Source: Salipiger pentaromativorans
GTDB taxonomy: Bacteria; Pseudomonadota; Alphaproteobacteria; Rhodobacterales; Rhodobacteraceae
Reading direction: 5' to 3'
Length of the DNA: 64,000 nt
Assembly: GCF_024721115.1 (NCBI RefSeq)
Contig: NZ_JAMDHK010000010.1
Span: forward strand, 62,001-126,000
The notes beneath the pieces are model-generated. The model did no database searches. It was given only the letters and a program-made list of their open reading frames with translations, and was not told the DNA's origin. A program made the position numbers and the translations under genes. The stretch's first letter is position 1; every line of letters starts with the position of its first letter. This document shows positions 5,864 through 42,565 of the stretch, piece after piece.

Positions 5864-6934
5864 CTATTTGCGAGGGCCGAGCCGCAGCCGCGAGGCCACC
5901 AGCGGCGCGGCGAGAATGATCAGCACGAGCCGCACGAGATGATGCACGACCACGATCCCGATATCCGCTCCAGCCGCCAGAGCAAGCAGCATCATTTCCG
6001 CCTGCCCGCCCGGAGCGAAGGCGAGCAGCCCTTCGAGCGGTGACAGGAGGCCGAGCTGCACCACCACCTCGGTGACAAACCCCGCGAGCGCCGCGAGGAT
6101 CAGCACATAGACCACCCCGGCAAGCACCTTGCCCCCGAGCTCGGCAAAGGTCACGCCCACATAGCCCGCCCCCAGTGCCACACCCAGAAAGAATTGCGCC
6201 GCCGAGATCACCTCTGCCGGCGGGCGGTGCTCGACAAGCCCGGTAAGCGACAGCGCCGCCCCCAGGATGAGCGGCCCCAGGACCGGCGCGCCGAACAACC
6301 TCAGCCGCAGGGCAATCCGCCACCCCGCATAGCCCGCGATCCCCATCAGGAGGAGTTCGGTCATCGGGGTCGGCGAAACCTGCGCCTTGTCGGGCGGGGT
6401 GAAATCGAGATCGAACGCATAGGCCAGCAGCACCGGAAGCAGCGCGACCGTGGCCACAACCCGCGTCGTGTGCACAAGGGCCAGCGCGCGCTCGTCGCCG
6501 CCCGCCTCCCTGCCGAACAGCACCATGTCGGTCAGCCCGCCCGGCATCGCCGCGTAATAGGCGGTGGCCCGGTCGAACCCGCAGACACGCATGAAATAGG
6601 GCACCCCCACCAGCCCGGCGGTGGCGACGAACAGCGGCACGATGGCGACCGTGTAGGCCATCCGGGGAATATGCGCCACGACGTCCGGCGTGATCGCGGT
6701 TCCCGCCGTCACCCCGATGATGAGACGGCTTGCCATCGTCATCGCGTCGTTCGTCACCAGCGGCGCGCGCATGAGCCCCGCGACCAGACAAAAACACATG
6801 GGACCGAAGAGCCAGGGCAGCGGCACGCCGAGCCAAAGGAAACACCAGGCCCCCGCCCCGGCGAGCGCCAGGGTTCCCAGCTGCGCTTTCCAGCGCGACA
6901 CGCGCAGCCATTCACGCAGGGACAATCTGGACAT
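5864..6934 (-). CDS. AbrB-family membrane protein
   Basis: A 356-residue polytopic membrane protein with the internal duplication of the AbrB family, sometimes misnamed ammonia monooxygenase regulator. Each half starts with a short PxPxLLGP-like segment (VPLPWLFGPM near residue 40; APVLGPLILG near 215) and carries AMPGGLTDMV and FAPGGQAEMM respectively. The biochemical role is not established; some members are proposed carboxylate transporters. It lies convergent with the LysR gene (9-base gap) and 49 bases after the last gene of the ABC operon, so it may be co-transcribed with it. Confidence 0.8.
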   Translation of the reverse strand: MSRLSLREWLRVSRWKAQLGTLALAGAGAWCFLWLGVPLPWLFGPMCFCLVAGLMRAPLVTNDAMTMASRLIIGVTAGTAITPDVVAHIPRMAYTVAIVPLFVATAGLVGVPYFMRVCGFDRATAYYAAMPGGLTDMVLFGREAGGDERALALVHTTRVVATVALLPVLLAYAFDLDFTPPDKAQVSPTPMTELLLMGIAGYAGWRIALRLRLFGAPVLGPLILGAALSLTGLVEHRPPAEVISAAQFFLGVALGAGYVGVTFAELGGKVLAGVVYVLILAALAGFVTEVVVQLGLLSPLEGLLAFAPGGQAEMMLLALAAGADIGIVVVHHLVRLVLIILAAPLVASRLRLGPRK

Positions 6935-6983
6935 GTGGCGGTCTTTCTCAGTCGCAGGACGGATCGCCCGGGCGGCACCGCGG

Positions 6984-7790
6984 TCAGGCGGTGCCGGATT
7001 TCGGCAGATGCAGCCCGGTCGAATTCAGCAGCTTTTGGGTGTAGGGATGCTTGGGATCGCCCACCACGGTTTCCGCGTCGCCTTTTTCGACAACCTCGCC
7101 GTCCTTCATCACCAGAACCCGGTGTGCGAAGTAGCGCGCGATGGAAATGTCATGGGTGATCATCAGGTAGCTGACGCCCATCTCCTGCCGGATCTTCAGC
7201 ATCAGGTTCAGCACCTGCCCGCGCAGGGACACATCCGCCCCCGAGAGCGGCTCGTCCGCGACGATGACCGACGGCTGCATCGCCAGCGCCCGCGCGATCG
7301 AAAGCCGCTGCCGCTGCCCGCCGCTCAGCTCATGCGGATGACGGTCTAGGAAATCCTCCTCGGTGCGCAGCCCGACATTGGCCAGCGTCTCGCGGATAAA
7401 GACCGCCCGGTCGCCCGTGTAGGCCCAGGAGGCCTGCGTCATCAGGCTGCGGATCGTCCGGCGCGGATTGAGCGAGGTGGTGGGATCCTGAAAGATCGGC
7501 TGCACCAGGGCGCGGGCCGCCTTGCGGTCGGCCTTGCCCATGGTCGCCCAGCTCTTGCCCCGGACCCGCACATCGCCGGTATCGGGCCGGAGGATCCCCA
7601 GCGCGATGCGCCCCAGGGTGGATTTGCCCGAACCGCTTTCGCCCACGACGGCAACGATCTCGCCCGGACGGATGGCAAGGTCGAGCGGCTTGAGCGCCAC
7701 CACCTCCTCGCCCGCGAGATTGGTAAAGGTCTTGGACACGCCGGTCAGTGTCAGGATCGGGTTTTGCGGAGTGGCGGCGTCAGAGCTCAT
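6984..7790 (-). CDS. Peptide/nickel-type ABC transporter ATP-binding protein (DppF-like)
   Basis: A 268-residue ABC ATPase with Walker [13 protein letters not shown], signature LSGGQRQRLSIARAL, Walker B VIVADEPLS and the switch histidine in MITHDIS. Unlike its partner it lacks a long cysteine-rich C-terminal extension, ending in HPYTQKLLNSTG. The ATG at 7790 overlaps the end of the upstream ATPase gene by 11 bases. It is the last gene of the five-gene importer operon running from 12372 to 6984. Confidence 0.93.
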   Translation of the reverse strand: MSSDAATPQNPILTLTGVSKTFTNLAGEEVVALKPLDLAIRPGEIVAVVGESGSGKSTLGRIALGILRPDTGDVRVRGKSWATMGKADRKAARALVQPIFQDPTTSLNPRRTIRSLMTQASWAYTGDRAVFIRETLANVGLRTEEDFLDRHPHELSGGQRQRLSIARALAMQPSVIVADEPLSGADVSLRGQVLNLMLKIRQEMGVSYLMITHDISIARYFAHRVLVMKDGEVVEKGDAETVVGDPKHPYTQKLLNSTGLHLPKSGTA

Positions 7791-8784
7791 GGACGATCTT
7801 CCGTTCCTTGCCTTGGCTGTCTTCGGCGGCGAAGCAGCGAACCAGATGCGCGGCGGCACCATAGGGCGTGGCCTCGGGCATTCTCTGGCTGCAGACCGGC
7901 TGCCGCACCGCGCAGCGCGGCTCAAACGGGCAGCCCTGCGCCTCGATACGCAGATCGGGCGGATCGCCGGGAATGGTGACGAAGGTGCCGTCCTCCTGGC
8001 GCCGCCCCTCCGCCGCCGCAAGCAGCCCGCGGGTATAGGGATGAGCCGGGGCGGCAAAGATCTGCTCCGCCGCGCCCCACTCGATGGTCCGGCCCGAATA
8101 CATAACGTAAATCCGCTCGCAGACCGTGGCGACCAGGTCGAGATCGTGGCTGATGAGCAGCATGGCCATGCCGGTGCTCTTTTGCAGCTCCCCCAGCAGC
8201 TCCATGATTTCGGCCTGCGTGGTGACGTCGAGCGCGGTGGTGGGCTCGTCCGCCACCAGAAGTTTGGGCCGGCATCCCAGCGCCACCGCCAGAAGCGCCC
8301 GCTGCCGCATCCCGCCCGACAGCTCGTCCGGGTAGGAGCGGGCCACATGGGCCGGCAGCTTCACCATATCCAGCAGTTCCTTCAGGCGGGCCTCGATATT
8401 CTGCTCCGGATCGTGCAGGAGGATCGCCTCGCGGATCTGCTTGCCGACACTCATGATCGGATTGAGAAAGGTCAGCGGATCCTGGAACACCATGGCCACA
8501 GGGTGCCCCCTCATGCCGACCCACTCCTCCGGCGTCATCCGGGTCACGTCGCGGCCGTCGAGCACGATGCGCCCGCCCGCGATCTCGGCGCGCTCGGGAT
8601 CGAGCAGACCGAGCAGCGCGCGCGCGATGGTGGACTTGCCCGACCCGGATTCCCCCACAAGACCGACCGTCTCGCCCTGGCGCACCTTCAGCGAGGCGCC
8701 CTGCGTGGCGTGGATGGTCGTGCCGCGAAGCGTGTAGTCGATGCGGATGTCGGAAATCTCGACGATGTTCTCGGTCTGGGTCAT
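7780..8784 (-). CDS. Peptide/nickel-type ABC transporter ATP-binding protein (DppD-like)
   Basis: A 334-residue ABC ATPase with Walker [13 protein letters not shown], signature LSGGMRQRALLAVAL and Walker [13 protein letters not shown]. The C-terminal oligopeptide/dipeptide ATPase extension contains CPFEPRC...QPVC, the cysteine motif that holds an iron-sulfur cluster in this subfamily. The start codon shares ATGA with the stop of the upstream permease gene. Energises the importer together with the DppF-like protein. Confidence 0.93.
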   Translation of the reverse strand: MTQTENIVEISDIRIDYTLRGTTIHATQGASLKVRQGETVGLVGESGSGKSTIARALLGLLDPERAEIAGGRIVLDGRDVTRMTPEEWVGMRGHPVAMVFQDPLTFLNPIMSVGKQIREAILLHDPEQNIEARLKELLDMVKLPAHVARSYPDELSGGMRQRALLAVALGCRPKLLVADEPTTALDVTTQAEIMELLGELQKSTGMAMLLISHDLDLVATVCERIYVMYSGRTIEWGAAEQIFAAPAHPYTRGLLAAAEGRRQEDGTFVTIPGDPPDLRIEAQGCPFEPRCAVRQPVCSQRMPEATPYGAAAHLVRCFAAEDSQGKERKIVHEL

Positions 8785-9611
8785 GATTTCCGGCCCTTCG
8801 GATTCACATATGCGCCGATCCCGTCGCCGACGAAGTTACAGGCGAGCACTGTCAGGAAAATGGCGAGCCCCGGAAAGGTCGAGATCCACCAGGCGGTCAG
8901 CAGGTAGCTCTGGCCGAGGCTCAGCATGCGGCCCCAGCTCACCTGGCTCGGATCGCTGAGCCCGAGGAAGCTGAGCGAGGCTTCCAGCAGGATCGCCTGC
9001 CCCACCGCGAGCGTCGCCAGCGCAAAGACCGGGCGGACGGCGTTGGGAATGATCTCGCGCAGGAGGATATAGCCCTCGCTGTACCCCAGGCAGCGCACCG
9101 CATCGACGAAGTCGAGCCGCTTGATCCGCAGCACCTCGCCCCGGATGACCAGCGCCACAGGCGGCCAGGCGAGCAATGCGATGACCACCACGACCCGTGT
9201 CAGGCCGGGTCCCCACATGGCGACGATGACCGCCGCCAGGACAAAGGTCGGAATGACCTGGAACATCTCGGTGATGCGCATCACCACCAGATCCACCGCG
9301 CCGCCGGAAAAGCCCGCATAGGCCCCCACGATGATCCCCACGAGCGAGGTGGCGGCGGCGGCGGCAAAGCCCACGGTGAAGGAGATGCGCACGCCATCGA
9401 CGAATTGCAGGAACACGTCGCGCCCAAGCTCGTCCGTGCCGAAAAGATGCTGCGGCGAGGGTGGCTGCAGAAGGTCGGTGGACAGCGCCCTCGGGTTGCC
9501 GCCAGTAAGGGGCGGCACCAGCAGATAGAGCAGGATAAAGCCCGCAAAGATCGCAAGCCCGGTCCAGGCGCCCGCTCCGATATTGGGTAGTTTCAAGGCC
9601 TTATTCTCCAC
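8781..9611 (-). CDS. Peptide/nickel-type ABC transporter permease (DppC-like)
   Basis: A permease of 276 residues with an N-terminal transmembrane segment, the family motif HLFGTDELGRDVFLQ and a C-terminal BPD-transport module with the EAA-like loop (DAVRCLGYSEGYILLREIIP). I set the start at the GTG at 9611 (VENKALKLP), which overlaps the preceding permease gene by 11 bases and has GGGGG six bases upstream. Longer in-frame starts would run through dppB-like coding sequence. Confidence 0.9.
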   Translation of the reverse strand: MENKALKLPNIGAGAWTGLAIFAGFILLYLLVPPLTGGNPRALSTDLLQPPSPQHLFGTDELGRDVFLQFVDGVRISFTVGFAAAAATSLVGIIVGAYAGFSGGAVDLVVMRITEMFQVIPTFVLAAVIVAMWGPGLTRVVVVIALLAWPPVALVIRGEVLRIKRLDFVDAVRCLGYSEGYILLREIIPNAVRPVFALATLAVGQAILLEASLSFLGLSDPSQVSWGRMLSLGQSYLLTAWWISTFPGLAIFLTVLACNFVGDGIGAYVNPKGRKS

Positions 9612-10587
9612 GTCGCGCCCCCATGCTCTTGCGGACCCTTGGGTCGACGAGCGCGGCGACGAAATCCGCCAGCAGATTGCCCGCCACAACCATGACCGTG
9701 GCGAGCACAAGGATGCCCTGCAGCACGGGATAGTCGCGGCTGGCGATGGATTTCACGAACAGCGTGCCGAGGCCGGGCCAGGCAAAGACCGTCTCGACAA
9801 GGATCGAGCTGGTCAGCGCATGGCCGAGATTATAGCCCAGCACGACGATGACCGGCACCATGGCGTTGGGCAGCACGTGTTTCCACATGATGGCCCGCTC
9901 GCTCACACCCTTGGCCCGTGCGGTGGTGACGAAGTCGTCATGCATGACGCCCACCACGCTTGCCCGCGCCACCCGCAGCACGATGGCGATCTTGAACGAG
10001 ACCACGCAGATCAGCGGCAGGATCATATGCGCGGCCAGGTCGAGCGCCCCGGCGACACCGGTGGGCTGCACCCGGACCGAGCGTATCCCCGCCGCCGGAA
10101 GCCACGACAGCCCCACCGCAAAGATCAGCACCAGCACCTGCCCCAGCCAGAAGGACGGCATCGAATAGCCGAACATCACGATGGACGAGACCGTCGTGTC
10201 CAGCACCCCCGACCGCCGCACCGCCGTCACCACGGCCAGGAACACGCCGAGCAGAAAGGCGATGGCGATCCCCGGCAGGATAAGCTGCAACGTGTATTGC
10301 GCACGTTCGAGGATCAGCGGCAGCACCGCTTTGCGGTTTGCAAAGGAATACCCGAAATCGCCTTGAACAAGGTTCGTGACATAGTTCGCGAACTGCACCG
10401 TCAGCGGCTCGTCGAGCCCGAATTCGACGCGCACCTGAGCGATGTATTCATCCGGCGCGGGATATTCGCCGATCAGCGCGGTGACCGGGTCGCCCGGCAC
10501 CAGCTTGAGGATGAGGAAATTGACCGTGACGATGACGACGATGGTGACGAGGCCCCAGAAGAGCCGTCTGAAGAAGTATTTTCTCAT
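9601..10587 (-). CDS. Peptide/nickel-type ABC transporter permease (DppB-like)
   Basis: A 328-residue inner-membrane permease starting with the typical MRKYFFRRLFWGLVTIVVIV segment and the GDPVTALIGE motif of DppB/OppB proteins. The EAA loop is TTARAKGVSERAIMWKHVLP. It forms the transmembrane channel with the DppC-like protein. It lies about 200 bases downstream of the substrate-binding-protein gene, with a strong hairpin in between. Confidence 0.93.
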   Translation of the reverse strand: MRKYFFRRLFWGLVTIVVIVTVNFLILKLVPGDPVTALIGEYPAPDEYIAQVRVEFGLDEPLTVQFANYVTNLVQGDFGYSFANRKAVLPLILERAQYTLQLILPGIAIAFLLGVFLAVVTAVRRSGVLDTTVSSIVMFGYSMPSFWLGQVLVLIFAVGLSWLPAAGIRSVRVQPTGVAGALDLAAHMILPLICVVSFKIAIVLRVARASVVGVMHDDFVTTARAKGVSERAIMWKHVLPNAMVPVIVVLGYNLGHALTSSILVETVFAWPGLGTLFVKSIASRDYPVLQGILVLATVMVVAGNLLADFVAALVDPRVRKSMGARRGE

Positions 10588-10745
10588 CGCGTGGCATCCG
10601 GCCCGGCGGTTGCCGCCATTGCTGCCTGTTGCATGTGTTCGCGCTCGTGTTCGGGAGAATTGCTTGCCCCCTCACGCTGACCCGGACGGTCCGGTGAGGG
10701 AAGAGGGAACCGCCGTGACAGGCGGCCCCTCGGTGCGGTTGCGTG

Positions 10746-10776
10746 CCCCGTGGCCGGCTGTTCGCCGGCCACGGGG
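10746..10776 (-). terminator. Perfect 13-bp hairpin between binding-protein and permease genes
   Basis: CCCCGTGGCCGGC and its exact reverse complement are separated by a five-base loop. It sits 12 bases beyond the stop of the binding-protein gene, with no U-tract. In binding-protein-dependent importers such intercistronic stems usually protect the upstream mRNA or partly terminate, giving excess binding protein over membrane subunits. That role is inferred. Confidence 0.6.
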
Positions 10777-10788
10777 CGGATCGCAGGA

Positions 10789-12372
10789 TCACTCGGCGAA
10801 ATAGGCCTCGCCGAAGCGGCCGGCGCCTTCATAGCCCCAGATGCCGTAGAGATTGGCAACCGCCGCGTCGATCCCCTTGTTCTCGTGCAGGGTCATGACC
10901 GGCAGTTCCTCGGCGATGATCTTTTCCGCCTCGCGGTACGCCGCGCTCCGGGCCGAGGTTTCGGCCAGCGTCGCTCCCTGGGCGAACAGCTCGTCCACCT
11001 GGGGATTGCTGTAGCCCGAGGCGTTGCCGTAATTCTTGCCGATCGACGAGGTGATATAGACCCGCGCAATGCCGAGCGCCGGATCGCCATAGGTTCCGTA
11101 CGAGATGATCAGCACGCCGAAATCGCCATCGGTATAGGCGCGCGGGAGCAGCAGCGCGCGTTCCAGCGGCTCGACATTGACCTTGACGCCAACCTCCTGC
11201 CAGGCCGCCTGGATCGCGGTCGCGGCCTTCAGCCGCTCGGGCACGGCGGCCTCGAAGATGATGCTGGTCTCGAACCGGGTGCCGTCGGAGCCGCGCGCGA
11301 AGCCCAGTTCGTCGAGCTTGGCGTTCACCGCGTCCACATCGGCCGGATACATCTCGTCATAGCTCAGATCCGGGTTCGACGCCCAGCTCACCTGTTTCGG
11401 GATCGGGCCGGTCGCCTTCATGCCCTGTCCGCCAAACCCGGCCTTGAAGATAAAGTCCCGGTCCACGAGGCTGAACAGCGCCTGACGCAGCTCCTTGTTG
11501 TCGAAGGGCGGCTTGGTGACGTTGAAGAAGCCGAGCAGATTGTTCGGTGCCTGGCTCGCGGGCATGGTCTTGAGCGCCGGGCTCGCCTCGACGGCGGGCA
11601 GGTCGCTGACCGGGAAGTAGTATTTCTGGATGAAATCCGCCTCCCCGGCCAGCATGGCCTGAACGCGCGAGGCGGCATTGGGCATGAAGCGCGCAACCAC
11701 CCCGTCGAGGTAGGGGCGCCCCTCCTTCCAGTATGCCTCGTTCTTCACGAGCCGGATGGAGTCCCCGGTGTTCCAGGTCTCGAACTTGAAGGGACCTGTG
11801 CCGATCATCTCGGAGGAAGCCGGGTTGGTGTTCGGATCGGTGCCTTCGAAGACATGTTTGGGCGTGATCGCCCCACCGTTCCAGCAGGTCAGGATCCGCA
11901 TGAAGGGGCCGAAGGGCTCGCTGAGATTCACCGTCACCGCATGCGGCCCGTCCGCCACCACGCTTTCGATGCGCTTGCCAAGCTGCGCCGAAAAGAGCGG
12001 CGCGTATTTCGAGTTCACATTGGTAAAGGCATAGACCACATCGTCGGCGGTGAAGGGCTCGCCATCATGCCAGCTGGTCTCTCTCAGCTCGAACGTGTAG
12101 GACAGCCCGTCGTCCGAGATGGTCCAGGATTTGGCCAGCGCCGGAACCGGGTTGCCCTCGCCGTCGATCTCGACGAGGCCCTCCAGCACCATGCAGCCCA
12201 CCACGCCCTCGCCCGAGCCCGACGTGATCGCGGGATTGAGCGAGGTCAGCTCGTCGCCCACCACGACAATGGCCGTTCCGCCATAGGTGGGGTCCGGATC
12301 CTGGGCCAGCGCAGGCCCGGCGGTGGACAAAAGAAGGGTCGAAAGGCTTAACGCCCACGGTCTCAGTTTCAT
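10789..12372 (-). CDS. ABC transporter substrate-binding protein (peptide/nickel family, SBP family 5)
   Basis: A 527-residue exported protein. The Sec signal peptide is residues 1-23 (MKLRPWALSLSTLLLSTAGP then ALA). The mature protein has the family-5 hallmarks: GDELTSLNPAI, the DGLSYTFELRETSWHDGEPF segment around residue 85-105 and the late ASGYSNPQVDELFAQG motif. It captures the substrate in the periplasm for the permease/ATPase set downstream. The ATG at 12372 follows AGGGA by eight bases. Family-5 proteins bind peptides, nickel chelates, opines and other solutes, so the ligand is open. Confidence 0.92.
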   Translation of the reverse strand: MKLRPWALSLSTLLLSTAGPALAQDPDPTYGGTAIVVVGDELTSLNPAITSGSGEGVVGCMVLEGLVEIDGEGNPVPALAKSWTISDDGLSYTFELRETSWHDGEPFTADDVVYAFTNVNSKYAPLFSAQLGKRIESVVADGPHAVTVNLSEPFGPFMRILTCWNGGAITPKHVFEGTDPNTNPASSEMIGTGPFKFETWNTGDSIRLVKNEAYWKEGRPYLDGVVARFMPNAASRVQAMLAGEADFIQKYYFPVSDLPAVEASPALKTMPASQAPNNLLGFFNVTKPPFDNKELRQALFSLVDRDFIFKAGFGGQGMKATGPIPKQVSWASNPDLSYDEMYPADVDAVNAKLDELGFARGSDGTRFETSIIFEAAVPERLKAATAIQAAWQEVGVKVNVEPLERALLLPRAYTDGDFGVLIISYGTYGDPALGIARVYITSSIGKNYGNASGYSNPQVDELFAQGATLAETSARSAAYREAEKIIAEELPVMTLHENKGIDAAVANLYGIWGYEGAGRFGEAYFAE

Positions 12373-12589
12373 GATGTTTTCCCTGTTCGCTTTGTTTGTA
12401 TTTGTCTGGCTGTTGTCGCCGCGCTGGACCGGGAGACCCGTGCCCCCGGTCGCAGCCTGCTGCAATTTCACAAGCACTCCGTCCCAATTTCAAGACAAAT
12501 CCGGTACTTGTTCAATTTATTGATACATCCCCCATATCGGTAATGTTTTTGGCTCAGGATTTGCGCTCCTGCGCCGGCTTCCTCCGGCC
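12373..12589 (-). promoter_or_regulatory. Promoter region of the ABC importer operon
   Basis: This gap holds an AT-rich patch (about 12480-12560) in otherwise GC-rich DNA. On the minus strand TTGAAC is followed after 17 bases by TGAAAT, a plausible weak sigma-70 promoter, and TCAAT-AA-ATTGA forms a short inverted repeat just upstream. No experimental support; matches are partial. Confidence 0.3.
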
Positions 12590-13915
12590 TCAAACCCAAG
12601 GCGAGGGAACGTCCGGCAAGCCGAGATTCCCGCGCAGCGTCGTGCTCTCGTATTCCGTTCGATAAAGGCCCCGGCGCTGAAGCTCGGGCACCACCAGTTC
12701 GACGAAGGCATGGATGTCGCGCGGGGATTTCGCCGGCAGGATGTTGAAGCCGTCGGCGGCGCCCTCGGTGAACCACTTCTCCATGACATCGGCGATGTCC
12801 GAGGGCGAGCCCACCACCTCGAGATGCTGGTCGCTGATCACCGCATTCTCGTAGAGCTGCCGGATCGACCAACCCTCGCGGCGCGCCTGTTCGAGATAGA
12901 GATCGCTCCGGCTGATCCCCGAGATGGATTTCACCTCGTCCGGGAAGGGGCCGTCGATATCGTATTTGGACAGGTCGCCGAAATGCCGCGCGAGCCGCTG
13001 AAGACCCACGATCGGGTCGAGATCCTTCTGCGACTGGCGCTTCCACGCCTCCGCATCGGCGCGGGTCTCGCCCACCACCGGCATCAGGCCGGGCAGGATG
13101 CGGATGTCGTCGGGGCTGCGGCCAAATTTCTTCACCCGCTCCTTCATCGAGGCATAGGCGGCCCTGGCGGAGTCGAAATCGCTTTGCAGGGCATAGATCA
13201 CCTCGGCCTTGGAGGCGGCGAAATCCAACCCCGCTTCCGAGGCACCCGCCTGAAAAATCACCGGGCGGCCCTGCGGCGAACGCGGCTGCGAGAGCGGACC
13301 ATCGACGCGGAAGAACGCGCCCTTGTGATTGATCGGGTGCATCTTGGACGGCTCGAAGAACACGCCACGCTCCCGGTCGCGCGGAAAGGCATCGTCCTCC
13401 CAGCTGTTCCAGAGCCCGAAACACACGTCGAGCATCTCTTTGGCGCGCTGGTAGCGCAGGCCCTTTTCGAGGATCTTCTCCTCTCCGAAATTCCGCGCCT
13501 CCGCGTCGCGCGACGAGGTGACCACGTTCCAGCCCATGCGGCCGCCGCTGAGATGATCGACCGAGCCGAGCTGGCGGGCGAGCTGGAAAGGCTGGTGAAA
13601 GGTCGAGGACACGGTGGCCACGAGCCCGATATTGCTGGTGACCGCGCTCAGCGCCGCCAGCAGCGTGATCGGCTCGAACTCGGCCCCGCCATCGGAGCGC
13701 CCGAGCGCGCCCTCGGGGATGTTGGGCGAAAAGAACGCGCTGTGATCGGCCAGGAAGAAGATGTCGAAGAAAGCGCTTTCCAGCGTCTTGGCAAGATCGA
13801 GATAGAAGTTGAAATTGATCGCGCCGTCCGCCGGGACATCCGGATCCAGCCAGCCGGTCGGGTGATAGCCCAGCCCGCGTACCGATGCACCGAGCCTCAT
13901 CTTGCGGTCACTCAT
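12590..13915 (-). CDS. NtaA/SnaA/DszA-family FMN-dependent monooxygenase (copy A)
   Basis: A 441-residue member of the bacterial-luciferase-like family that uses FMNH2 and O2. Diagnostic segments are the N-terminal MRLGASVRGLGYHPTGW, FDIFFLADH near residue 55, the GRMGWNVVTS stretch near 145, SPQGRPVIFQAGAS near 235 and the C-terminal ELQRRGLYRTEYEST. Relatives oxidise nitrilotriacetate, EDTA and dibenzothiophene sulfone and need a separate flavin reductase, supplied here by the gene at 33209. The ATG at 13915 follows AAAGGAA. It is the most downstream of three adjacent paralogues. Confidence 0.9.
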   Translation of the reverse strand: MSDRKMRLGASVRGLGYHPTGWLDPDVPADGAINFNFYLDLAKTLESAFFDIFFLADHSAFFSPNIPEGALGRSDGGAEFEPITLLAALSAVTSNIGLVATVSSTFHQPFQLARQLGSVDHLSGGRMGWNVVTSSRDAEARNFGEEKILEKGLRYQRAKEMLDVCFGLWNSWEDDAFPRDRERGVFFEPSKMHPINHKGAFFRVDGPLSQPRSPQGRPVIFQAGASEAGLDFAASKAEVIYALQSDFDSARAAYASMKERVKKFGRSPDDIRILPGLMPVVGETRADAEAWKRQSQKDLDPIVGLQRLARHFGDLSKYDIDGPFPDEVKSISGISRSDLYLEQARREGWSIRQLYENAVISDQHLEVVGSPSDIADVMEKWFTEGAADGFNILPAKSPRDIHAFVELVVPELQRRGLYRTEYESTTLRGNLGLPDVPSPWV

Positions 13916-17755: not shown

Positions 17756-17768
17756 GGCGGGATCCTCC

Positions 17769-31798: not shown

Positions 31799-32214
31799 TG
31801 CAGGGCGGCGACGCTTTCGCGCGGCTCCAGGTGGAAATGGAGCGTCCGGTCTTCCATCACTGGCTGCGGCCGGAGGCGGTCAGCGCCTCCGACGACCGGA
31901 TCGAGATCGCCCTCACCACCCGTCCGGAATTCTGCCACAGCGCCGAGCCCGCGCTGATCCATGGCGGCATCGTCGCAAGCCTCGTCGACATCGCGGGTCA
32001 TGCGGTGGTTGCCGTGGCGCAGGGCTGTCCCGCCCCCACCCTCACCCTCTCCGTCGAGTTCCTCCGCCCGGCCCCCGCCGGGGTGCTGCGCGCGACCGGC
32101 CTGCTGCGAAAGCTGGGCCGCACCCTGTCGCGCGCGGATGTCGAGATCTACGCCGGCGACAAGCTCGTCGCGCTCGGTCGGGGAACCTTCGCCAACCCAG
32201 GAGGCCAGCCATGA
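31795..32214 (+). CDS. PaaI/hotdog-fold acyl-CoA thioesterase
   Basis: A 139-residue single hotdog-domain protein with the active-site pattern HGGIVASLVDIAGHAVV (residues about 54-70), typical of PaaI/YiiD-type thioesterases. It would hydrolyse a CoA thioester, either to release product or to rescue trapped CoA in the pathway started by the ligase. Its ATGATG start overlaps the ligase stop, so translation is coupled. Confidence 0.88.
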   Translation: MMQGGDAFARLQVEMERPVFHHWLRPEAVSASDDRIEIALTTRPEFCHSAEPALIHGGIVASLVDIAGHAVVAVAQGCPAPTLTLSVEFLRPAPAGVLRATGLLRKLGRTLSRADVEIYAGDKLVALGRGTFANPGGQP

Positions 32215-35829: not shown

Positions 35830-37146
35830 ATGGCAATGACGACTTCGCGCGAAATGCACCTCATCGCGTATCTCAAGACCGGCCCCACCGCGAACCACAT
35901 GGGCGCCTGGCGGCACCCGGAGGCCGACCTGCAGAACGTCCTCACCCCCGGCTACTACGAACATCTTGCGCGTGTTCTGGAAAACGGACGCTTCGACGGC
36001 TGCTTCTTCGCCGACGGGCTTGGGCTCCACGACATCTACAACGGCGGCTACCAGACCCGGCTTCAGCTCGGCGGCCAGATCAGCTTTCTCGACCCGATGA
36101 TGGTGCTGCCGCTCATGGCGCGGGCAACCACCCATCTCGGCATCTGCACCACACTTTCGACGACCTTCCACCAGCCCTACAACCTGGCCCGGATGCTCTC
36201 CTCGCTCGACATCCTGAGCGGCGGGCGCGTCGCCTGGAACATCGTCACCTCCACCCGGCGCGAAGAGGCGCTCAACTTCGGCATGGACGATCTGCCGACG
36301 CGCGACGAGCGCTACGACCGCGCCGACGAGGTGGTCGAAGCCTGCTGCGCGCTCTGGGACTGCTGGGAAGAGGGCAGCCTTGTCATGGACAAGGAGAACG
36401 GCCTGATGGTCGACGCCTCCAAGGTCCATTACGCCAATTACGAAGGCCGCTGGACGAAAACGCGCGGCCCGCTGACGATCCCCCGCTCGCCGCAGGGCCG
36501 GCCCGTGCTCATGCAGGCGGGCTCTTCTCCGCGCGGCCGCGATTTCGCCGCCCGCTGGGCCGAGGTGATCTTTGTGCCGCTCAACGACAAGGCCGAGCTC
36601 CGCGCCTTCCGCGAGGATATCGCCGCACGCATGTCCGCCGTCGGCCGCGACCCGGCGAAATGCGCCATTCTGCCCTCGCTTCGTGTCGTCGTGGGCGAGA
36701 CCGAGTCCATCGCCGAGGAAAAGGCCGCCTATCTCGACTCGCTCATCGACCCCGAGCTGGTCATCGCCGCCCGGTCGAGCGAGATCGGCGTCGATCTGGC
36801 TCAGCCGATGAAAGACATCGACGCCATCGGCAAGGCCCGCGGCACCCAGGGCATGCACGAATCCTTCGCCCGCGTGCAGCGCCTCATGGAGCAGGAGAAT
36901 ATCGGCTTCGAAGACGCCCTGCGCCGCCAGTCGCGGCGCGGCACACTCGTGGGCACAGCCCAGAGCATCGTTGACCAGATGCAGGACCTCTTCGACGGCG
37001 AAGCCTGCGACGGCTTCATCATCGAACAGATGGTCGTGCCCTCCTCGCTCGAGGAATTCTGCCGGACCATCGTGCCGGAGCTTCAGAAACGCGGGCTCCT
37101 CCGCCGTGAATACCGCGGCACGACCCTGCGCGAAAACCTGCAATAG
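35830..37146 (+). CDS. NtaA/SnaA/DszA-family FMN-dependent monooxygenase (copy D)
   Basis: A 438-residue enzyme of the same family as copies A-C: MGAWRHPEAD near residue 24, FDGCFFADGLGLHD near 54, GRVAWNIVTSTRREEA near 137, SPQGRPVLMQAGSSPRG near 222 and C-terminal ELQKRGLLRREYRGTTLREN. It is distinct from A-C. It heads the second peptide-family ABC importer operon, the same pairing of monooxygenase and importer seen in EDTA and related chelator catabolic loci. A start at the second Met (35836) is possible. Confidence 0.9.
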   Translation: MAMTTSREMHLIAYLKTGPTANHMGAWRHPEADLQNVLTPGYYEHLARVLENGRFDGCFFADGLGLHDIYNGGYQTRLQLGGQISFLDPMMVLPLMARATTHLGICTTLSTTFHQPYNLARMLSSLDILSGGRVAWNIVTSTRREEALNFGMDDLPTRDERYDRADEVVEACCALWDCWEEGSLVMDKENGLMVDASKVHYANYEGRWTKTRGPLTIPRSPQGRPVLMQAGSSPRGRDFAARWAEVIFVPLNDKAELRAFREDIAARMSAVGRDPAKCAILPSLRVVVGETESIAEEKAAYLDSLIDPELVIAARSSEIGVDLAQPMKDIDAIGKARGTQGMHESFARVQRLMEQENIGFEDALRRQSRRGTLVGTAQSIVDQMQDLFDGEACDGFIIEQMVVPSSLEEFCRTIVPELQKRGLLRREYRGTTLRENLQ

Positions 37147-37207: not shown

Positions 37208-38740
37208 ATGGACAGTGTTGACAGACGCGATTTTCTGCTCGGCCTCGGCGCAGGCGGGCTTGTTCTTGCGGCCGGCCCCGCCGCCGCCCAGGCCACGCCC
37301 GCGCAGGGCGGCACCTTCTCGATCGGGCTTCAGGATAGCCTCGATACGCTGGACCCCACCTTCTCGATCCAGTTCGCCGAGCGGCGGATCCTGCATCTCG
37401 TCTACAACACCCTGGTCTCCATCGGCACCGATTTCAGCGTAAAGCCCGAACTCGCCGCCTCCTGGGAGATCGAGAACGACGGTCTGCGCTACGTCTTCCA
37501 TCTGCAAGACGGCGTGAGCTTTCATGACGGCACCCCCTTCGACGCCGAGGCGGTCAAGTTCAACATCGAGCACCGGCTCGACGAATCCGTGGGCTCGCCC
37601 CAGCGCAGCCGGCTCGATCCGGTCATCGACAGCGTCGAGGTGATTGATCCGCTCACCGTCGCGATCAACCTCAAGACCGCCTACCCCGGCCTTCTGGGCG
37701 ATTTTGCCGACCGCGCGGGCTTTATGATCTCGCCCGCCGCCGTCGCGAAATTCGGCGAGGATTTCGGCAGCAACCCGGTCGGCACCGGCGCCTTCACCCT
37801 CACCGAATGGGTGCGCGGCACCAGTGTCACGCTCGACCGAAACCCGGATTACTGGGAAGACGGCGCCCCGTATCTCGACCGCATCGTCTTTCAGACCATT
37901 CCCAACACCATCATCGGCCTCCAGCGCCTGCGCGTGGGCGAGCTCGATTATGTCGACAACCTCAGCCCCGACGACCTGCGCCAGATCGAGGGCAATGACG
38001 AGATCAAGACCGAGGCCTTCCCGGTCGGCCTGTGGTATTCGCTGCAATGGCAGGTCGACAAGGCGCCCTTCGACGACCTGAAGCTGCGCCAGGCCGTGGC
38101 CCATGCGCTCGACCGCGACCGGATCAACCAGATCATGATGAACGGTCAGGCCAATGTCGCCAACAGCCCGACGCCTCCGGGCCTCTGGTGGTCGACCGAC
38201 GCGCCCTACCCCTATCCCTACGATCCCGAAAAGGCCCGCGCCCTGCTGGCCGAGGCCGGGCTCGAGGGCGGCGCGCTGACCCTCACAACCCCCAGCACAC
38301 CGATCTACCGGCGGCTCAACCAGCTTGTCGCCGAACAGCTCGGCGAGGTCGGCCTTTCGGTCACGCTCGAACCCGTCGAAAGCTCGCAATGGTATTCGCG
38401 CGTGGTCTCCAAAGCGGTGAATTTCACGCCGATGAGCTGGTCGCAGCGCGCCGATCCCGACGGGCTCTTCTACATCCTGTTCAGCAGCAAGGGCCACGCC
38501 AACACCACCGGCTACAACAACCCCGAGGTCGACGCCCTGCTCGACGAGGCGCGCAACCTGCTCTCCCCCGAGGAGCGCAAGCCGCTCTACACCGAGGCGG
38601 CCGAGCTGATCGTGCACGATCTGCCTTATGTGCCACTGTTCTTCTCGGCCTCCTTCGCCGCGATGAGCCAGGCGGTGGACGGCGTGATCCTCACCCCGGA
38701 CAGCATTCCGCGCTTCCGCTACGTCTCCAAATCCGCCTGA
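37208..38740 (+). CDS. ABC transporter substrate-binding protein (peptide/nickel family), Tat signal
   Basis: A 510-residue family-5 solute-binding protein. The N terminus DRRDFLLGLGAGGLVLAAG is a twin-arginine signal, unlike the Sec signal of the other family-5 protein in the window. Mature motifs include DSLDTLDPTFSIQ, the DGLRYVFHLQDGVSFHDGTP segment near residue 90 and TGYNNPEVDALLDEA near 440. Tat export suggests folding or cofactor/metal loading in the cytoplasm, though many binding proteins use Tat without cofactor. Confidence 0.92.
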   Translation: MDSVDRRDFLLGLGAGGLVLAAGPAAAQATPAQGGTFSIGLQDSLDTLDPTFSIQFAERRILHLVYNTLVSIGTDFSVKPELAASWEIENDGLRYVFHLQDGVSFHDGTPFDAEAVKFNIEHRLDESVGSPQRSRLDPVIDSVEVIDPLTVAINLKTAYPGLLGDFADRAGFMISPAAVAKFGEDFGSNPVGTGAFTLTEWVRGTSVTLDRNPDYWEDGAPYLDRIVFQTIPNTIIGLQRLRVGELDYVDNLSPDDLRQIEGNDEIKTEAFPVGLWYSLQWQVDKAPFDDLKLRQAVAHALDRDRINQIMMNGQANVANSPTPPGLWWSTDAPYPYPYDPEKARALLAEAGLEGGALTLTTPSTPIYRRLNQLVAEQLGEVGLSVTLEPVESSQWYSRVVSKAVNFTPMSWSQRADPDGLFYILFSSKGHANTTGYNNPEVDALLDEARNLLSPEERKPLYTEAAELIVHDLPYVPLFFSASFAAMSQAVDGVILTPDSIPRFRYVSKSA

Positions 38741-38804
38741 TCCCGACGAAGAGACACGCAACCCCGAACCGACACCACCAGGAAAGGCAGGAGCGGAACG
38801 CACC

Positions 38805-39740
38805 ATGCTCAACTTCGTTCTGCGGCGGCTGATGTGGGTCCTGCCCAATATCGTGCTGCTGACCTTCCTGCTTTTCGCGGTGGTCACCAACTGGCTCGGC
38901 AGCCCGGCCTCCATGATGCTGGGCACCGACGCCTCGCCCGAGGCGGTGGCCGAGCTGAATGCCCGCTACGGTTTCGACCGGCCCGTGGTGGTGCAGTATC
39001 TGCAATGGATCGGCAACGCCGCCACCGGCGATTTCGGCCGGTCCTACGCCACCCGCCAGCCCGTGGCCGAGATGATCGGCCCCGCGATCCCGGTCACGCT
39101 CGAACTCACGTTCTGGACAATGCTGCTGGCGATCTCGGCCACGCTGGTGATCAACAGCATCCCCGTGGGCAAGCATGTGGTGGGCGCGCTCACCACCGGC
39201 ATCAGCATCGTCGGCGTGACCGTGCCCAACTTTCTGCTCGGCGCCACGCTCATCAGCATCTTTTCGGTAAGTCTCGGCTGGCTGCCCACCACCGGCTGGC
39301 GGCCGTGGAGCGACGGGATCTTCACCCATCTACAGCACCTGATCCTGCCGGTGCTCACGCTCTCGGCCTATTACTTCAGCACCTTCAGCATGATCTACCG
39401 GGCGGAATACCGGCAGGTCGAACAGCAGCTTTTCGTGCGCGTGGCCGAGGCCAAGGGCATTTCCCGGCGCGCGGTCTCGTTCCTACACGTGCTGCCCAAC
39501 GCCATCCTGCCGCTCGTCGTCTATATCGGCACCAGCATCGGCAATCTCGTGGGCGGCGCCGTGGTGACCGAGACGGTGTTTTCCATCCCCGGACTCGGGC
39601 GGCTCTTCGTCTCGGCCATCGCGCGCTACGACTTTCCCGTGATGCTGACCATGGGAATGATCACCCTCGCCGGGGTCATGCTCATGAACCTCGCCGCCGA
39701 GCTTATCCTTGCCCTTCTCAACCCGCAGATCCGCCTATGA
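38805..39740 (+). CDS. Peptide/nickel-type ABC transporter permease (DppB-like)
   Basis: A 311-residue permease opening with MLNFVLRRLMWVLPNIVLLT and carrying the EAA-like loop RVAEAKGISRRAVSFLHVLP near residue 215. It forms the channel of the second importer with the DppC-like protein, whose gene overlaps it by four bases (ATGA). Confidence 0.93.
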   Translation: MLNFVLRRLMWVLPNIVLLTFLLFAVVTNWLGSPASMMLGTDASPEAVAELNARYGFDRPVVVQYLQWIGNAATGDFGRSYATRQPVAEMIGPAIPVTLELTFWTMLLAISATLVINSIPVGKHVVGALTTGISIVGVTVPNFLLGATLISIFSVSLGWLPTTGWRPWSDGIFTHLQHLILPVLTLSAYYFSTFSMIYRAEYRQVEQQLFVRVAEAKGISRRAVSFLHVLPNAILPLVVYIGTSIGNLVGGAVVTETVFSIPGLGRLFVSAIARYDFPVMLTMGMITLAGVMLMNLAAELILALLNPQIRL

Positions 39741-40519
39741 CAGCCGTTACCCTGCGACGCATCACCGGTCTTACCCTGATCGCCTTCGTGGCGCTGGCCG
39801 GGATTTTTGCGCCCTGGCTCAGCGCCTTCGACCCCAATGCCTCGGGCTACGATATTCTCTACCCCGCCTCCGCCGAGCATCCTTTCGGCACCGACGACCT
39901 CGGGCGCGACGTCTTTACCCGCGTGCTCTACGGCGCCCGCATCTCGCTGGTGATCGGGCCCGCCGCCGCGCTCATCGTGGCGCTGATCGGCATCCCCATC
40001 GGGCTTGTGGCTGGCTATGCCCATGGCCGTGCCGACCAGATGATCGTGCAGGTCATCGACCTCTTCATCGCGATCCCCGCCTTCGTGCTGGCGCTGATCG
40101 TCATGGCGATGATCGGCGCCAGCCTGCCCAACCTCGTCTTTGTGCTTGGGCTCGTCATGTGGCCCGAGATGGCCCGCCTCGTGCGCGGTCAGGTCAAGAG
40201 CGTGCGCGAAAGGCTCTATATCGAGGCCGCCGACGCCATTGGCTGCTCGCGCACCCGCATTCTTGCCCGGCATATCTGGCCCAATATCATGCACACCATC
40301 GCGGCGCAGCTCGCGATCACCGTCTCCACCGCCATCTTCACCGCCGCCAGCCTGGGCTTTCTCGGCCTCGGCCTACCCCCGCCCGCGGCGGATTGGGGCG
40401 GCATGGTCCAGAGCGGCTTCGACTATCTCTCGCTCAACCCTTGGCTGAGCATCGCGCCGGGCTGCGCCGTGGCCATGACGGTGATGGGCTTCTATCTTCT
40501 GGGACGCACCATTGACTGA
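39737..40519 (+). CDS. Peptide/nickel-type ABC transporter permease (DppC-like)
   Basis: A 260-residue permease with HPFGTDDLGRDVFTRVLYGA near residue 46 and an EAA loop IEAADAIGCSRTRILARHIWP near 160. The start at 39737 shares ATGA with the DppB-like gene; longer in-frame extension would run inside that gene. The next gene starts eight bases before its stop. Confidence 0.92.
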   Translation: MTAVTLRRITGLTLIAFVALAGIFAPWLSAFDPNASGYDILYPASAEHPFGTDDLGRDVFTRVLYGARISLVIGPAAALIVALIGIPIGLVAGYAHGRADQMIVQVIDLFIAIPAFVLALIVMAMIGASLPNLVFVLGLVMWPEMARLVRGQVKSVRERLYIEAADAIGCSRTRILARHIWPNIMHTIAAQLAITVSTAIFTAASLGFLGLGLPPPAADWGGMVQSGFDYLSLNPWLSIAPGCAVAMTVMGFYLLGRTID

Positions 40520-41510
40520 CCCCAAGACCCCTCCGCTCCTCCAGGTCGAGGATCTGCGCGTTTCCTTCGGCGCCGGCGCCCACGAGACCCGCGCCGTCGA
40601 TGGCATCGGCCTTACGGTCGAGCGCGGCCGCACCCATGGCATCGTCGGCGAAAGCGGAAGCGGGAAATCCATGCTGTCCCTCGCGATCATGGGGCTGGTG
40701 CCCGATTCCGGGCGCATCGCCTCGGGCCGGATCAGGCTCGGCGGTCGCGATCTTGCGGGGCTGCCCTACCGCGAGATGCAGGCGATCCGGGGCAAGCGGA
40801 TCGCCATGATCTTCCAGGAGCCGATGACCAGCCTCAACCCGCTCTACACGATCGGCCGGCAGCTCTCCGAGGCGATCCGCGCCCATGACCGCAGGGCCTC
40901 GGCCCGCGAGATCCGGAACCGCGCCATCGAGCTGTTGCGGCGGGTCCGCATCCCCTCTCCGGAACGGCGGGTGGACGATTACCCACACCAGATGTCCGGC
41001 GGCATGCGCCAGCGCGTAATGATCGCCATGGCGCTCTCTTGCGGTCCGGAACTGCTGATCGCCGACGAGCCCACCACCGCGCTGGACGTGACCGTTCAGG
41101 TGCAGATCCTCGATCTCCTGCGCGAGCTTCAGGACGAGACCGGGATGGCGATGATCTTCATCACCCACGATCTCGGTGTGGTCGCCGCCGTCGCCGACGA
41201 GGTTTCGGTCATGTATGCGGGCCGTGTGGTCGAGACGGGAACCGCCCGGAATATCTTCGAGGACGCCCAGCATCCCTATACGCTCGGCCTGCTCGGCAGC
41301 CGCCCGCGGCTCGACCGGAACCTGCACCGGCTGCCCACCATCGAAGGCGCGGTGCCGCCGCCCTTCGACCTGCCGCCCGGCTGCCGCTTCGAGCCCCGCT
41401 GCGCCTTTGCCACCCCGGATTGCGCCGCCGCCTGCCCCGGCCTGCGACCCTTTGGCGGCAACCATCTCGCGGCCTGCTTTCGCGCCCCGGTCAAGGAGAT
41501 CGCCCGATGA
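40512..41510 (+). CDS. Peptide/nickel-type ABC transporter ATP-binding protein (DppD-like)
   Basis: A 332-residue ABC ATPase: Walker [13 protein letters not shown], signature [15 protein letters not shown], Walker [13 protein letters not shown] and the C-terminal cysteine-containing [14 protein letters not shown] extension. The start is TTG at 40512, overlapping the permease gene by eight bases; no ATG lies nearby in frame, so the rare start may keep its level low. Confidence 0.92.
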
Positions 41511-42565
41511 GCCACCACCTCCTGGAACTCGAGAACGTGACCCGGCAATTCCAGGTCTCCGCCGGCCTCTCCAGAGGGCGCGGCGGCGCGGTCGTGCGCG
41601 CGGTGGACAACGTCTCCCTGACCCTCGAAAAAGGCGAAACACTGGGTCTCGTGGGTGAATCCGGCTGCGGCAAGTCCACGCTCGCCCGGCTGGCCCTCAA
41701 GCTTCTCGATCCCGATGCCGGAACGATCCGCTATAACGGGCAGGACATAACCGATCGCTCCCGCAGCACCATGCGGCCGTTACGGCGGCGGATGCAGATG
41801 ATCTTCCAGGATCCCTCGGCGTCGCTCAATCCCCGGATGACCGTCGGAGAGCTGATCGAGGAACCGCTCATCGTGCACGAGATCGGCAACCGTGCCAGCC
41901 GCCGCGCGCGGGTGAGCGAGCTGCTCTCGCTGGTCGGGCTCTCCGACTACCACGCCTCCCGCCAGCCGCACCAGTTTTCGGGCGGTCAGCGCCAGCGGAT
42001 CGGCATCGCCCGCGCCCTCGCAGTGAATCCCGAGCTCATCGTCTGCGACGAGCCGGTCTCGGCGCTCGACGTCTCTATTCAGGCCCAGATCGTCAATCTG
42101 ATGCAAGACCTCCAGACCGGTCTCGGGCTCTCCTATCTCTTCATCGCCCATGACCTCGCCGTGGTGAAACACATCGCCGATCGCATCGCGGTCATGTATC
42201 TGGGCAAGATCATGGAGATCGGTCCGGCGGACCGGCTCTTCGAAAACCCCCGCCATCCCTATACCCGCACCCTCATCGCCTCGGTTCTGTCGCCGGACGG
42301 CAAGCGGCGGCAGGCGGCCCCGGCGACCGGAGATCTGCCAAGCCCCCTCGCCGTGCCAGAGGGCTGCCGGTTCCATCCCAGATGCCCCCATGCCACCGAT
42401 CTCTGCCGGCGCCTCGACCCCGCCTTGCAGGAGCTGGGCGAGGGCCATCAAAGCGCCTGCCATCACGCGGCCAGCCTGCCCACCATCGCGCCTCCCGAAG
42501 CGAAACGGCAACAACCGACTCCGGCCGAGCGGCGCATGGGTCTCGCGATACAAGCACGATCCTGA
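41507..42565 (+). CDS. Peptide/nickel-type ABC transporter ATP-binding protein (DppF-like)
   Basis: A 352-residue ABC ATPase with Walker [16 protein letters not shown], signature [15 protein letters not shown], Walker [13 protein letters not shown] and the C-terminal [14 protein letters not shown] motif. ATGA overlap with the DppD-like gene. Its last 30 residues are low-complexity and differ from the family, so the end may have been altered by the rearrangement that placed the IS3 remnant 77 bases downstream. It ends the intact catabolic supercluster. Confidence 0.92.

Follow-up and report, generated by a model that had tools for sequence, protein, structure and literature searches.

In this work we analysed a stretch of 64,000 nucleotides of the Salipiger pentaromativorans genome (5.28 Mb; contig NZ_JAMDHK010000010.1, positions 62,001 to 126,000), hereafter called the window, and within it a catabolic island at positions 5864-42565. 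The island is built around an XRE-type regulator (27128-28072) that separates two divergent gene sets. With pyridine-type molybdenum (Mo) hydroxylases, a PuuE-like hydrolase, an amidase, a coenzyme A (CoA) ligase, a thioesterase and a quinone-type reductase, this regulator forms a core that is almost certainly one conserved catabolic unit. There are good grounds for thinking that the core would act on a nitrogen heterocycle through the opening of an imide, and we lean towards a pyridine-4-carboxylate as its substrate, most likely isonicotinate or 2-hydroxyisonicotinate, which would be degraded via tricarballylate to cis-aconitate. The sequences themselves show which genes are present, how they are conserved, to which enzyme families they belong and that they co-occur with the tricarballylate dehydrogenase TcuA. 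Isonicotinate is a product of isoniazid and of other pyridine chemicals, and a biochemical pathway for its breakdown was reportedly published in 1993. A literature search by title and start of the abstract returned no genes for isonicotinate or citrazinate breakdown; subscription journals lay mostly outside this search, and such a paper may exist. If our reading is true, every step of isonicotinate breakdown gains candidate genes. In Alphaproteobacteria the trait would have a genomic signature, made up of the XRE regulator accompanied by CoA ligase and reductase and of a TcuA somewhere in the same genome, and related sets would be recognised on one plasmid of a betaproteobacterium and one of an actinobacterium. 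Tricarballylate dehydrogenase would take part in the degradation of aromatic compounds, and the island would exemplify two Mo catalytic subunits served by one electron-transfer pair.

Genes were called from codon composition with inspection of starts, and families were assigned by Pfam and NCBIfam scans. The scans confirmed the inventory of monooxygenases, hydroxylase, importers and other genes that had been proposed from the letters alone (the original prediction), and the 31 genes called in 5864-42565 also include a thioesterase, a PIG3/QOR-type reductase, RibBA, an AbrB-type protein and the XRE regulator, which were missing there, as were tcuB and tcuA, just left of this interval. Leftward from the regulator lie TAXI, TRAP, Lb, La, CoxM, CoxS, the PuuE-like gene, three NtaA-family genes, an ABC importer and the AbrB-type gene; rightward lie the amidase, CoA ligase, thioesterase, reductase, flavin reductase, RibBA, aldolase, luc4 and a second ABC importer. 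The six genes from CoA ligase through thioesterase, QOR-type reductase, flavin reductase and RibBA to aldolase follow one another with 4-base overlaps. The genes of the core and of the tcu operon are:

2424-3479, minus strand: tcuB, 4Fe-4S electron-transfer partner of tricarballylate dehydrogenase (TIGR02484 335 bits, cut-off 246.6)
3469-4863, minus strand: tcuA, flavin adenine dinucleotide (FAD)-dependent tricarballylate dehydrogenase (NF006130 683 bits, cut-off 369; TIGR02485 608 bits, cut-off 372.55)
4793-5854, plus strand: LysR regulator, divergent from tcuA (Pfam LysR_substrate, HTH_1)
16856-17755, minus strand: PuuE-like protein, proposed cyclic-imide (glutarimide) hydrolase (TIGR03212 109.5 bits)
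17769-18269, minus strand: CoxS, [2Fe-2S] subunit (Pfam)
18277-19158, minus strand: CoxM, FAD subunit (Pfam)
19155-21578, minus strand: Mo large subunit La (Pfam MoCoBD_1/2)
21536-23902, minus strand: Mo large subunit Lb (nearest PDB entry 7dqx, 644 bits)
23905-25860 and 25963-26943, minus strand: fused TRAP permease and TAXI binding protein (TIGR02123 542 bits; NMT1_3)
27128-28072, minus strand: XRE-type regulator (HTH_3)
28191-29459, plus strand: amidase, proposed half-amidase (PF01425)
29468-29926, minus strand: CoxG-like SRPBCC protein (PF06240), on the opposite strand with the amidase and CoA ligase on either side
29978-31798, plus strand: AMP-binding CoA ligase (Pfam, NCBIfam), true start probably near 30098
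31795-32214, plus strand: PaaI-type thioesterase (Pfam, NCBIfam)
32211-33212, plus strand: PIG3/QOR-type reductase (Pfam, NCBIfam)

Conservation of the core and its link to TcuA

A regulator search through 84,980 species genomes returned 108 relatives, and the best 80 of the 108 loci were analysed, with genes counted when they fell within 10 kb of the regulator in either direction, at thresholds of 35% identity and 40% coverage; because 30 of the loci span less than 18 kb, gene counts are lower bounds, and the related genomes are not independent. CoxL is found in 70 of the 80 loci, the amidase in 40, the reductase in 29, the CoA ligase in 25, the thioesterase in 19, the PuuE-like gene in 17 and TAXI, part of the candidate TAXI-TRAP importer, in nine. 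CoA ligase and reductase stand together in 25 loci by a strict rule (at least 45% and at least 50% identity, respectively), with the amidase in 20 of these and puuE within 10 kb in nine; 51 loci have neither gene at 35%, and four are intermediate (L125, L130, L139 and L148). In Chachezhania sediminis (G139), Salipiger marinus (G678) and S. thiooxidans (G687) the divergent core recurs, most of its proteins being 55-79% identical to those of the window, with 51-57% for the thioesterase and 41-48% for the aldolase, whose homologue in Salipiger and Chachezhania is encoded in the space separating La from CoxM. Of 20 genomes of the genus, the window's own counted, 3 have Lb at 73% or above. When 292 genomes of the order were searched with the PuuE-like protein, C. 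sediminis (78%) was the sole strong relative besides the window, many others lying at about 50-55%, and the core is common to one of the 18 PuuE-like neighbourhoods fetched, that of C. sediminis. At 35% identity and 40% coverage, the 17 neighbourhoods of the 50-55% relatives held no CoA ligase, reductase, thioesterase, tcuA, XRE or CoxL; an amidase occurs in one of these 17 and CoxS in one, with weaker matches such as a 28% CoxL in L048. The neighbours of a PuuE-like gene on a Polaromonas plasmid differ from the core as well.

Kindred sets are found on plasmids of other classes. Plasmid pDP3 of Alicycliphilus denitrificans DP3 carries coxG, CoA ligase, thioesterase, reductase, PuuE-like, XdhC, amidase and XRE genes, two different CoxLSM sets, and annotated tcuA and tcuB. 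Identity to the window is 44-62% for coxG, CoA ligase, thioesterase, reductase, PuuE-like protein, amidase, XRE, tcuA and tcuB, 42-51% for CoxS and 30-37% for CoxM. Most core genes of pDP3 (L194:1-42805 with L192) are in two copies with identical protein accessions, which looks like a duplicated catabolic plasmid. Homologues of the XRE regulator occur on 73 plasmid records, 53 of them from Klebsiella; among the 15 listed, that of pDP3 is 58% identical and all others at most 48%. A differently arranged set is present on pLDW-10 of Arthrobacter crystallopoietes, with thioesterase, CoxMLS, asparaginase, SRPBCC, XdhC and Mo-cofactor genes, a GntR regulator, an ABC importer of another type and an annotated tcuA about 5 kb away; its CoA ligase is 52% and its reductase 57% identical to the window's, and its two PuuE-like proteins 34 and 29%. 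Next to this set (L224:20097-30089) lie genes for a luciferase-type oxidoreductase, a flavin reductase, an aldehyde dehydrogenase, an amidohydrolase and a BCCT carrier. The substrate of these luciferase-type neighbours might be a quaternary N-methylpyridine, and they could be a parallel to the NtaA enzymes added to the core in the window; at E 1e-3, BLAST matches neither the pLDW-10 luciferase-type oxidoreductase nor its flavin reductase to those of the window.

The position of tcuAB beside the core suggests tricarballylate as end product. TcuA and TcuB score above the equivalog cut-offs in the window, in C. sediminis (G139) and in G418, tcuB of the window being under the PRK15033 subfamily cut-off (376 of 524), and the window TcuA is the sole match above cut-off in its own genome. 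The tcuAB genes lie inside or beside the core in Rhodobacteraceae bacterium HLUCCA12, C. sediminis, S. marinus, Telmatospirillum and pDP3. HLUCCA12 has the closest regulator (77%), and tcuA (74%) and tcuB (61%) are between its reductase and amidase genes. In Chachezhania antarctica and S. thiooxidans, TcuA is on the core contig, about 3.5 kb past the locus end in the former and about 32 kb from it in the latter. TcuA was searched in 53 genomes, namely all 25 with the CoA branch, L125, L139 and L148 (positive in each case and left out of the count), and 25 genomes from the group of 51, chosen by eye with in-locus TcuA matches already known. It is above cut-off in 23 of the 25 genomes whose XRE locus includes both the CoA ligase and the reductase, the exceptions being L118 and L157, versus 1 of the 25 tested with neither gene; Fisher's test gives 1.2e-10, a value inflated by kinship, for a contrast within one regulator family. 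In the single positive of the latter group (L169), the CoA ligase and reductase genes lie some 17 kb away from the regulator, as seen in L099. Base rates of TcuA above cut-off are 33 of 149 in the order (G000 and G139 counted) and 15 of 190 in the class (G000 and G418 counted). At 35% identity and 40% coverage, TcuA lies within 10 kb of the regulator in 12 of the 80 loci. In nine loci without the CoA branch (L132, L135, L138, L145, L146, L159, L170, L174 and L178), a TcuA-like FAD dehydrogenase of 34-37% identity is found instead, which suggests that this regulator family also controls related pathways for other heterocycles.

The proposed pathway and its enzymes

The proposed substrate, the order of the steps and every reaction are inferred from these genes. 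The TAXI-TRAP importer would take up the substrate, and two Mo-dependent hydroxylations of the ring, one per large subunit, would give citrazinate (2,6-dihydroxyisonicotinate). The CoA ligase would then form citrazyl-CoA, which the QOR-type reductase would convert to 2,6-dioxopiperidine-4-carboxyl-CoA, a glutarimide. The PuuE-like enzyme would open the imide ring, the amidase would free ammonia from the resulting half-amide, and the thioesterase would release tricarballylate, to be oxidised by TcuAB to cis-aconitate, an intermediate of the tricarboxylic acid cycle. The window holds a CoA ligase, a reductase, a candidate imide hydrolase and an amidase, as well as two large subunits of pyridine type, assigned by sequence, for two ring hydroxylations. 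It is the combination of two Mo-hydroxylations, CoA activation, reduction, imide opening, deamidation and a tricarballylate end that would designate a pyridine-4-carboxylate: on chemical grounds, tricarballylate closed into a six-membered imide is 2,6-dioxopiperidine-4-carboxylate, which corresponds to citrazinate after reduction of the ring. The original prediction had held the compound impossible to name; this class can be proposed from tcuAB, the CoA branch and the kind of imide hydrolase predicted. Kretzer, Frunzke and Andreesen reportedly described citrazyl-CoA, a dioxopiperidine and tricarballylate in Mycobacterium sp. INA1 in 1993. The Mo-dependent hydroxylation of isonicotinate to a 2,6-dihydroxy product in this strain is documented in PMC4548258.

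The nearest solved structure to the PuuE-like protein is PuuE allantoinase, and its predicted model (mean predicted local distance difference test, pLDDT, 82) aligns to PuuE 3cl6 with a template modelling (TM) score of 0.79 and to HpPgdA with 0.73. Its TIGR03212 score is far under the cut-off (109.5 versus 424.6 bits), so that the protein is like PuuE and is not PuuE; allantoin or purine breakdown was rejected on this ground and on the gene content of the 17 neighbourhoods of 50-55% relatives described above. Located by motif, the corresponding positions of the window protein are N38, E40, H118 and N122. The first three agree with PuuE, in which the ion is not bound according to the alignment printed in PMC3084791; the ion ligands of HpPgdA given there are Asp14, His86 and His90. 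A precedent for the proposed role is HxnM of Aspergillus nidulans, an HpPgdA/PuuE-like protein that opens 3-hydroxypiperidine-2,6-dione before the amidase HxnN removes the amide (PMC9304392). The nearest solved structure to the window amidase is malonamidase E2 (270 bits). Malonamidase E2 cleaves a half-amide.

Among solved structures, Lb is nearest to 7dqx, the 6-hydroxypseudooxynicotine dehydrogenase Kdh (644 bits), and La to 7dqx (470 bits) and 1t3q, quinoline 2-oxidoreductase (443 bits). That both large subunits have 6-hydroxypseudooxynicotine dehydrogenase and quinoline 2-oxidoreductase as nearest relatives supports the catabolic island of the original prediction, probably one for a nitrogen heterocycle. 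Lb is 42% identical to La and 43% identical to KdhC, and it retains Phe269, Arg383 and Glu748. Kdh Glu345 is replaced by Gly in both Lb and La. At the site of Trp551 Lb has His and La has Phe, and each of the two subunits has an Arg close by. Kdh, which performs a second hydroxylation to a 2,6-dihydroxypyridine, loses activity without Trp551 or the amine-binding Glu345 (PMC8305194). The changes in Lb and La would fit a hydroxylase for a pyridine with an acidic, not basic, side group. Aerobic carbon monoxide dehydrogenase was considered and rejected, as the large subunits reach 692 and 620 of 950 bits for NF040766 and 416 and 386 of 991 for TIGR02416.

The window and its nearest relatives have one pair of small (S) and medium (M) subunits for Lb and La together, whereas in G565 and G660, from other families of the class, every large subunit is accompanied by a separate S and M. 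We built an S-subunit tree from the window and 55 of 76 S rows, L194 and rows without a nearby large subunit being omitted, except those of the two-headed kind. In this tree the S of the window, together with seven like it, groups with 22 S encoded next to Lb (support 98/97), apart from the La-adjacent S, with long branches flagged. It thus appears that La has lost its own S/M pair and uses that of Lb; because the second pair would be lost, Lb and La are proposed to share one. In Rhodovulum sp. 12E13 and HLUCCA09, La adjoins an Lb-type pair with no Lb within 10 kb; next comes a further large subunit, 43% identical to Lb, that has a separate pair. This arrangement suggests that La can work with an Lb-type pair. 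Telmatospirillum (L099:11280-12640, and L169) offers the mirror of the window's case, a La-type CoxM/CoxS pair without an adjoining La in the stretch covered, and the second S copies of L169 and L099 fall into the La clade of the tree.

The accessory monooxygenases and other explanations

The following genes flank the core:

5864-6934, minus strand: AbrB-type membrane protein, accessory (PF05145 248 bits)
6984-12477, minus strand: first peptide-type ABC importer, complete, accessory (Pfam SBP_bac_5): ATPases 6984-7790 and 7780-8784, permeases 8781-9611 and 9601-10587, binding protein 10789-12477
12590-13915, 13951-15327 and 15479-16789, minus strand: luc1, luc2 and luc3, NtaA/DmoA-family flavin mononucleotide (FMN) monooxygenases, accessory (TIGR03860 above cut-off)
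33209-33736, plus strand: flavin reductase (Flavin_Reduct)
33733-34884, plus strand: RibBA (ribB 212.6 bits, cut-off 177.45; ribA 30.8 of 205.85)
34881-35603, plus strand: class II aldolase/decarboxylase (Aldolase_II)
35830-37146, plus strand: luc4, fourth NtaA/DmoA-family monooxygenase (TIGR03860 459 bits)
37208-42565, plus strand: second peptide-type ABC importer, complete, accessory (Pfam SBP_bac_5): binding protein 37208-38740, permeases 38805-39740 and 39737-40519, ATPases 40512-41510 and 41507-42565

The four NtaA-family assignments stand, with TIGR03860 scores of 517, 550, 502 and 459 bits (cut-off 279.7); luc1-3 are 43-46% identical to one another. Nearest structures were compared for luc1, luc2 and luc4: luc1 and luc2 are nearer YtnJ/MoxC than ethylenediaminetetraacetate (EDTA) monooxygenase (352 versus 214 and 354 versus 219 bits), with the nitrilotriacetate (NTA) monooxygenase entry 3sdo close behind (326 and 350 bits), and luc4 is nearest to DszA (356.6 versus 195 bits for EDTA monooxygenase). 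Because luc3 starts 66 bases past puuE, and 4-base overlaps attach the flavin reductase to the core reductase gene and to RibBA, the NtaA enzymes are probably co-transcribed with the core in this genome. The flavin reductase and RibBA are proposed to supply FMNH2 and FMN to them. The RibA half of RibBA is perhaps degenerate (TIGR00505 30.8 of 205.85, one Cys), yet its Pfam GTP_cyclohydro2 score of 82 bits is above cut-off. Matches to luc2 at E<=1e-120 occur in five genomes besides the window's among 244 of the order, at 51% identity or less, and the stretches fetched around these five matches hold no core genes; for luc4, the 243 genomes of this set other than the window's give no match at that threshold (in both searches only the first candidates per genome were scored). 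Proteins similar to luc2 (35-46%) occur in 4 of 10 core genomes searched; in three of these the gene is on a non-core contig, and in Chachezhania antarctica (36%) it shares a contig with the core, at a distance of about 44 kb. In the 60-kb stretches of C. sediminis, S. marinus and S. thiooxidans no NtaA, flavin reductase or RibBA was found, nor within 10 kb of the regulator at any of the 80 loci, a reach that in the window covers flavin reductase, RibBA and luc4, with luc1-3 and AbrB lying beyond it, so that the count is silent on them.

These distributions bear on how many pathways the island holds. The original prediction saw one supercluster, in which the NtaA enzymes, both ABC importers and the Mo-hydroxylase would form one pathway for a chelating or nitrogen-rich compound. 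The probable co-transcription of NtaA and flavin genes with the core speaks for it in this genome, but the NtaA modules are not conserved with the hydroxylase core, the sequence affinities of luc1, luc2 and luc4 are with YtnJ/MoxC and DszA, and a supercluster centred on the NtaA genes was rejected; we consider this explanation quite unlikely. The unlinked occurrence of single operons in relatives, which the prediction had named as telling against it, is found for half of the case, since the core regulator stands without flavin reductase, RibBA or NtaA within 10 kb at 80 of 80 loci. It is also rather improbable that the core, the tcu operon and the two NtaA/ABC operons are chance neighbours, joined by horizontal transfer without a common substrate. 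In its favour are insertion sequence (IS) remnants on the right (44384-45427 and 50937-51323), the lack of luc4 matches at E<=1e-120 in the 243 other genomes of the order and the YtnJ/MoxC and DszA kinship of luc1, luc2 and luc4; the 4-base overlaps that bind flavin reductase and RibBA to the core operon, and the recurrence of tcuAB inside or beside the core in five other replicons or genomes, argue to the contrary. We think instead that the NtaA enzymes, flavin reductase, RibBA and two ABC importers are probably a genome-specific front end, added to the core and feeding a more complex precursor into it. More speculatively, one S/M pair would serve two Mo subunits for consecutive hydroxylations of one ring, possibly in alternative or mixed complexes, and a monooxygenase front end with its own FMN-making enzyme would feed N-alkylated or otherwise substituted isonicotinates.

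The more serious competitor, to which we give about one chance in four in plain terms of belief, is that the core degrades another pyridine, quinoline or related ring, TcuA acting on another polycarboxylate derived from it. La is about equally near Kdh and quinoline 2-oxidoreductase, and TcuA-like proteins of 30-45% in 12 of the 80 loci indicate that related islands may use other FAD dehydrogenases; on the other side, the window TcuA is above its equivalog cut-off and tracks the CoA ligase and reductase branch, and the imide of tricarballylate would correspond to reduced citrazinate. Several observations weigh against the isonicotinate pathway. TcuA of at least 50% identity over at least 40% of its length lies within 10 kb of the regulator in only 7 of the 80 loci (nine with L166 and L168, at 69% and cut by the locus end), so the link of TcuA to the core is mostly genome-wide, not in-locus, and the CoA-branch loci L118 and L157 have no TcuA in the genome. 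The regulator family serves several pathways, because 51 of the 80 loci are without CoA ligase and reductase within 10 kb and plasmid homologues can have other surroundings: the one examined in Nitratireductor lies among TRAP and pyrimidine genes. CoxL of pDP3 is only 30-33% identical to the window's, and with CoxL at 30% and TcuA at 34% being remote in pLDW-10, what recurs there is the function set rather than each gene. The metal ligands of HpPgdA are not evident in the PuuE-like protein, judged by motif and not by alignment to HpPgdA; for this reason, and because of its score far under the PuuE cut-off, its proposed imidase role is drawn from family and context. 

Neighbouring genes and known systems

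The C-terminal two thirds of the XRE regulator have no Pfam match and a fold model of pLDDT 73, with a weak resemblance to PLD/TrmB-type domains (best E 1.2e-3) that was not used; this part is possibly an undescribed effector-binding domain. A CTGTG-N7-CACAG palindrome in the gap between XRE and amidase was rejected as the XRE operator, being exact in the window only, and 81 upstream stretches gave nothing better than shuffled ones. Adjoining tcuAB on the minus strand are TRAP permeases DctM (28-1338, Pfam 282 bits) and DctQ (1340-1945, 82.6 bits), from their position a possible di/tricarboxylate importer. Within the island the Pfam scan assigned none of the 31 genes to a transposase family, in agreement with the original prediction, which saw no IS there. 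To the right of the island, where part of the open reading frames (ORFs) past 42565 was scanned, the first IS found is an IS91-type transposase over two ORFs (44384-45427), followed by a piece of DDE transposase (50937-51323). A further catabolic operon at 54296-62856 comprises a GntR regulator, an enoyl-CoA hydratase family protein, two short-chain dehydrogenases, TRAP permeases, an aldehyde dehydrogenase and DctP.

Mycobacterium sp. INA1 resembles the window in Mo-dependent hydroxylation to a 2,6-dihydroxy product, but it is an actinobacterium known from biochemistry, whereas the window holds an alphaproteobacterial island known from genes, with XRE, TAXI-TRAP and two large subunits. The hxn genes of A. 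nidulans share a Mo-hydroxylase, a PuuE-like protein (in the fungus HxnM, an HpPgdA/PuuE-like imidase that acts on a piperidine-2,6-dione) and an amidase (HxnN, acting next); they differ in being fungal, in their substrate, nicotinate, in the enzymes of ring reduction and in ending at hydroxyglutarate, with no CoA step in the available part of PMC9304392. Kdh of pAO1 has the closest solved large subunit to Lb, with Glu748, Arg383 and Phe269 common to both, but identity is 43% and its Glu345 and Trp551 are Gly and His in Lb. The EDTA and NTA systems (emo, nta) are matched by four TIGR03860 enzymes, a flavin reductase and peptide-type ABC importers, but luc1, luc2 and luc4 are nearer YtnJ/MoxC or DszA, and the window NtaA genes are not conserved with the core. 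Finally, as in known tcu systems, tcuA and tcuB of the window exceed the equivalog cut-offs and have a divergent LysR gene; they differ in their linkage to a pyridine core and in having a TRAP system in place of the TcuC-type carrier of tcu systems.

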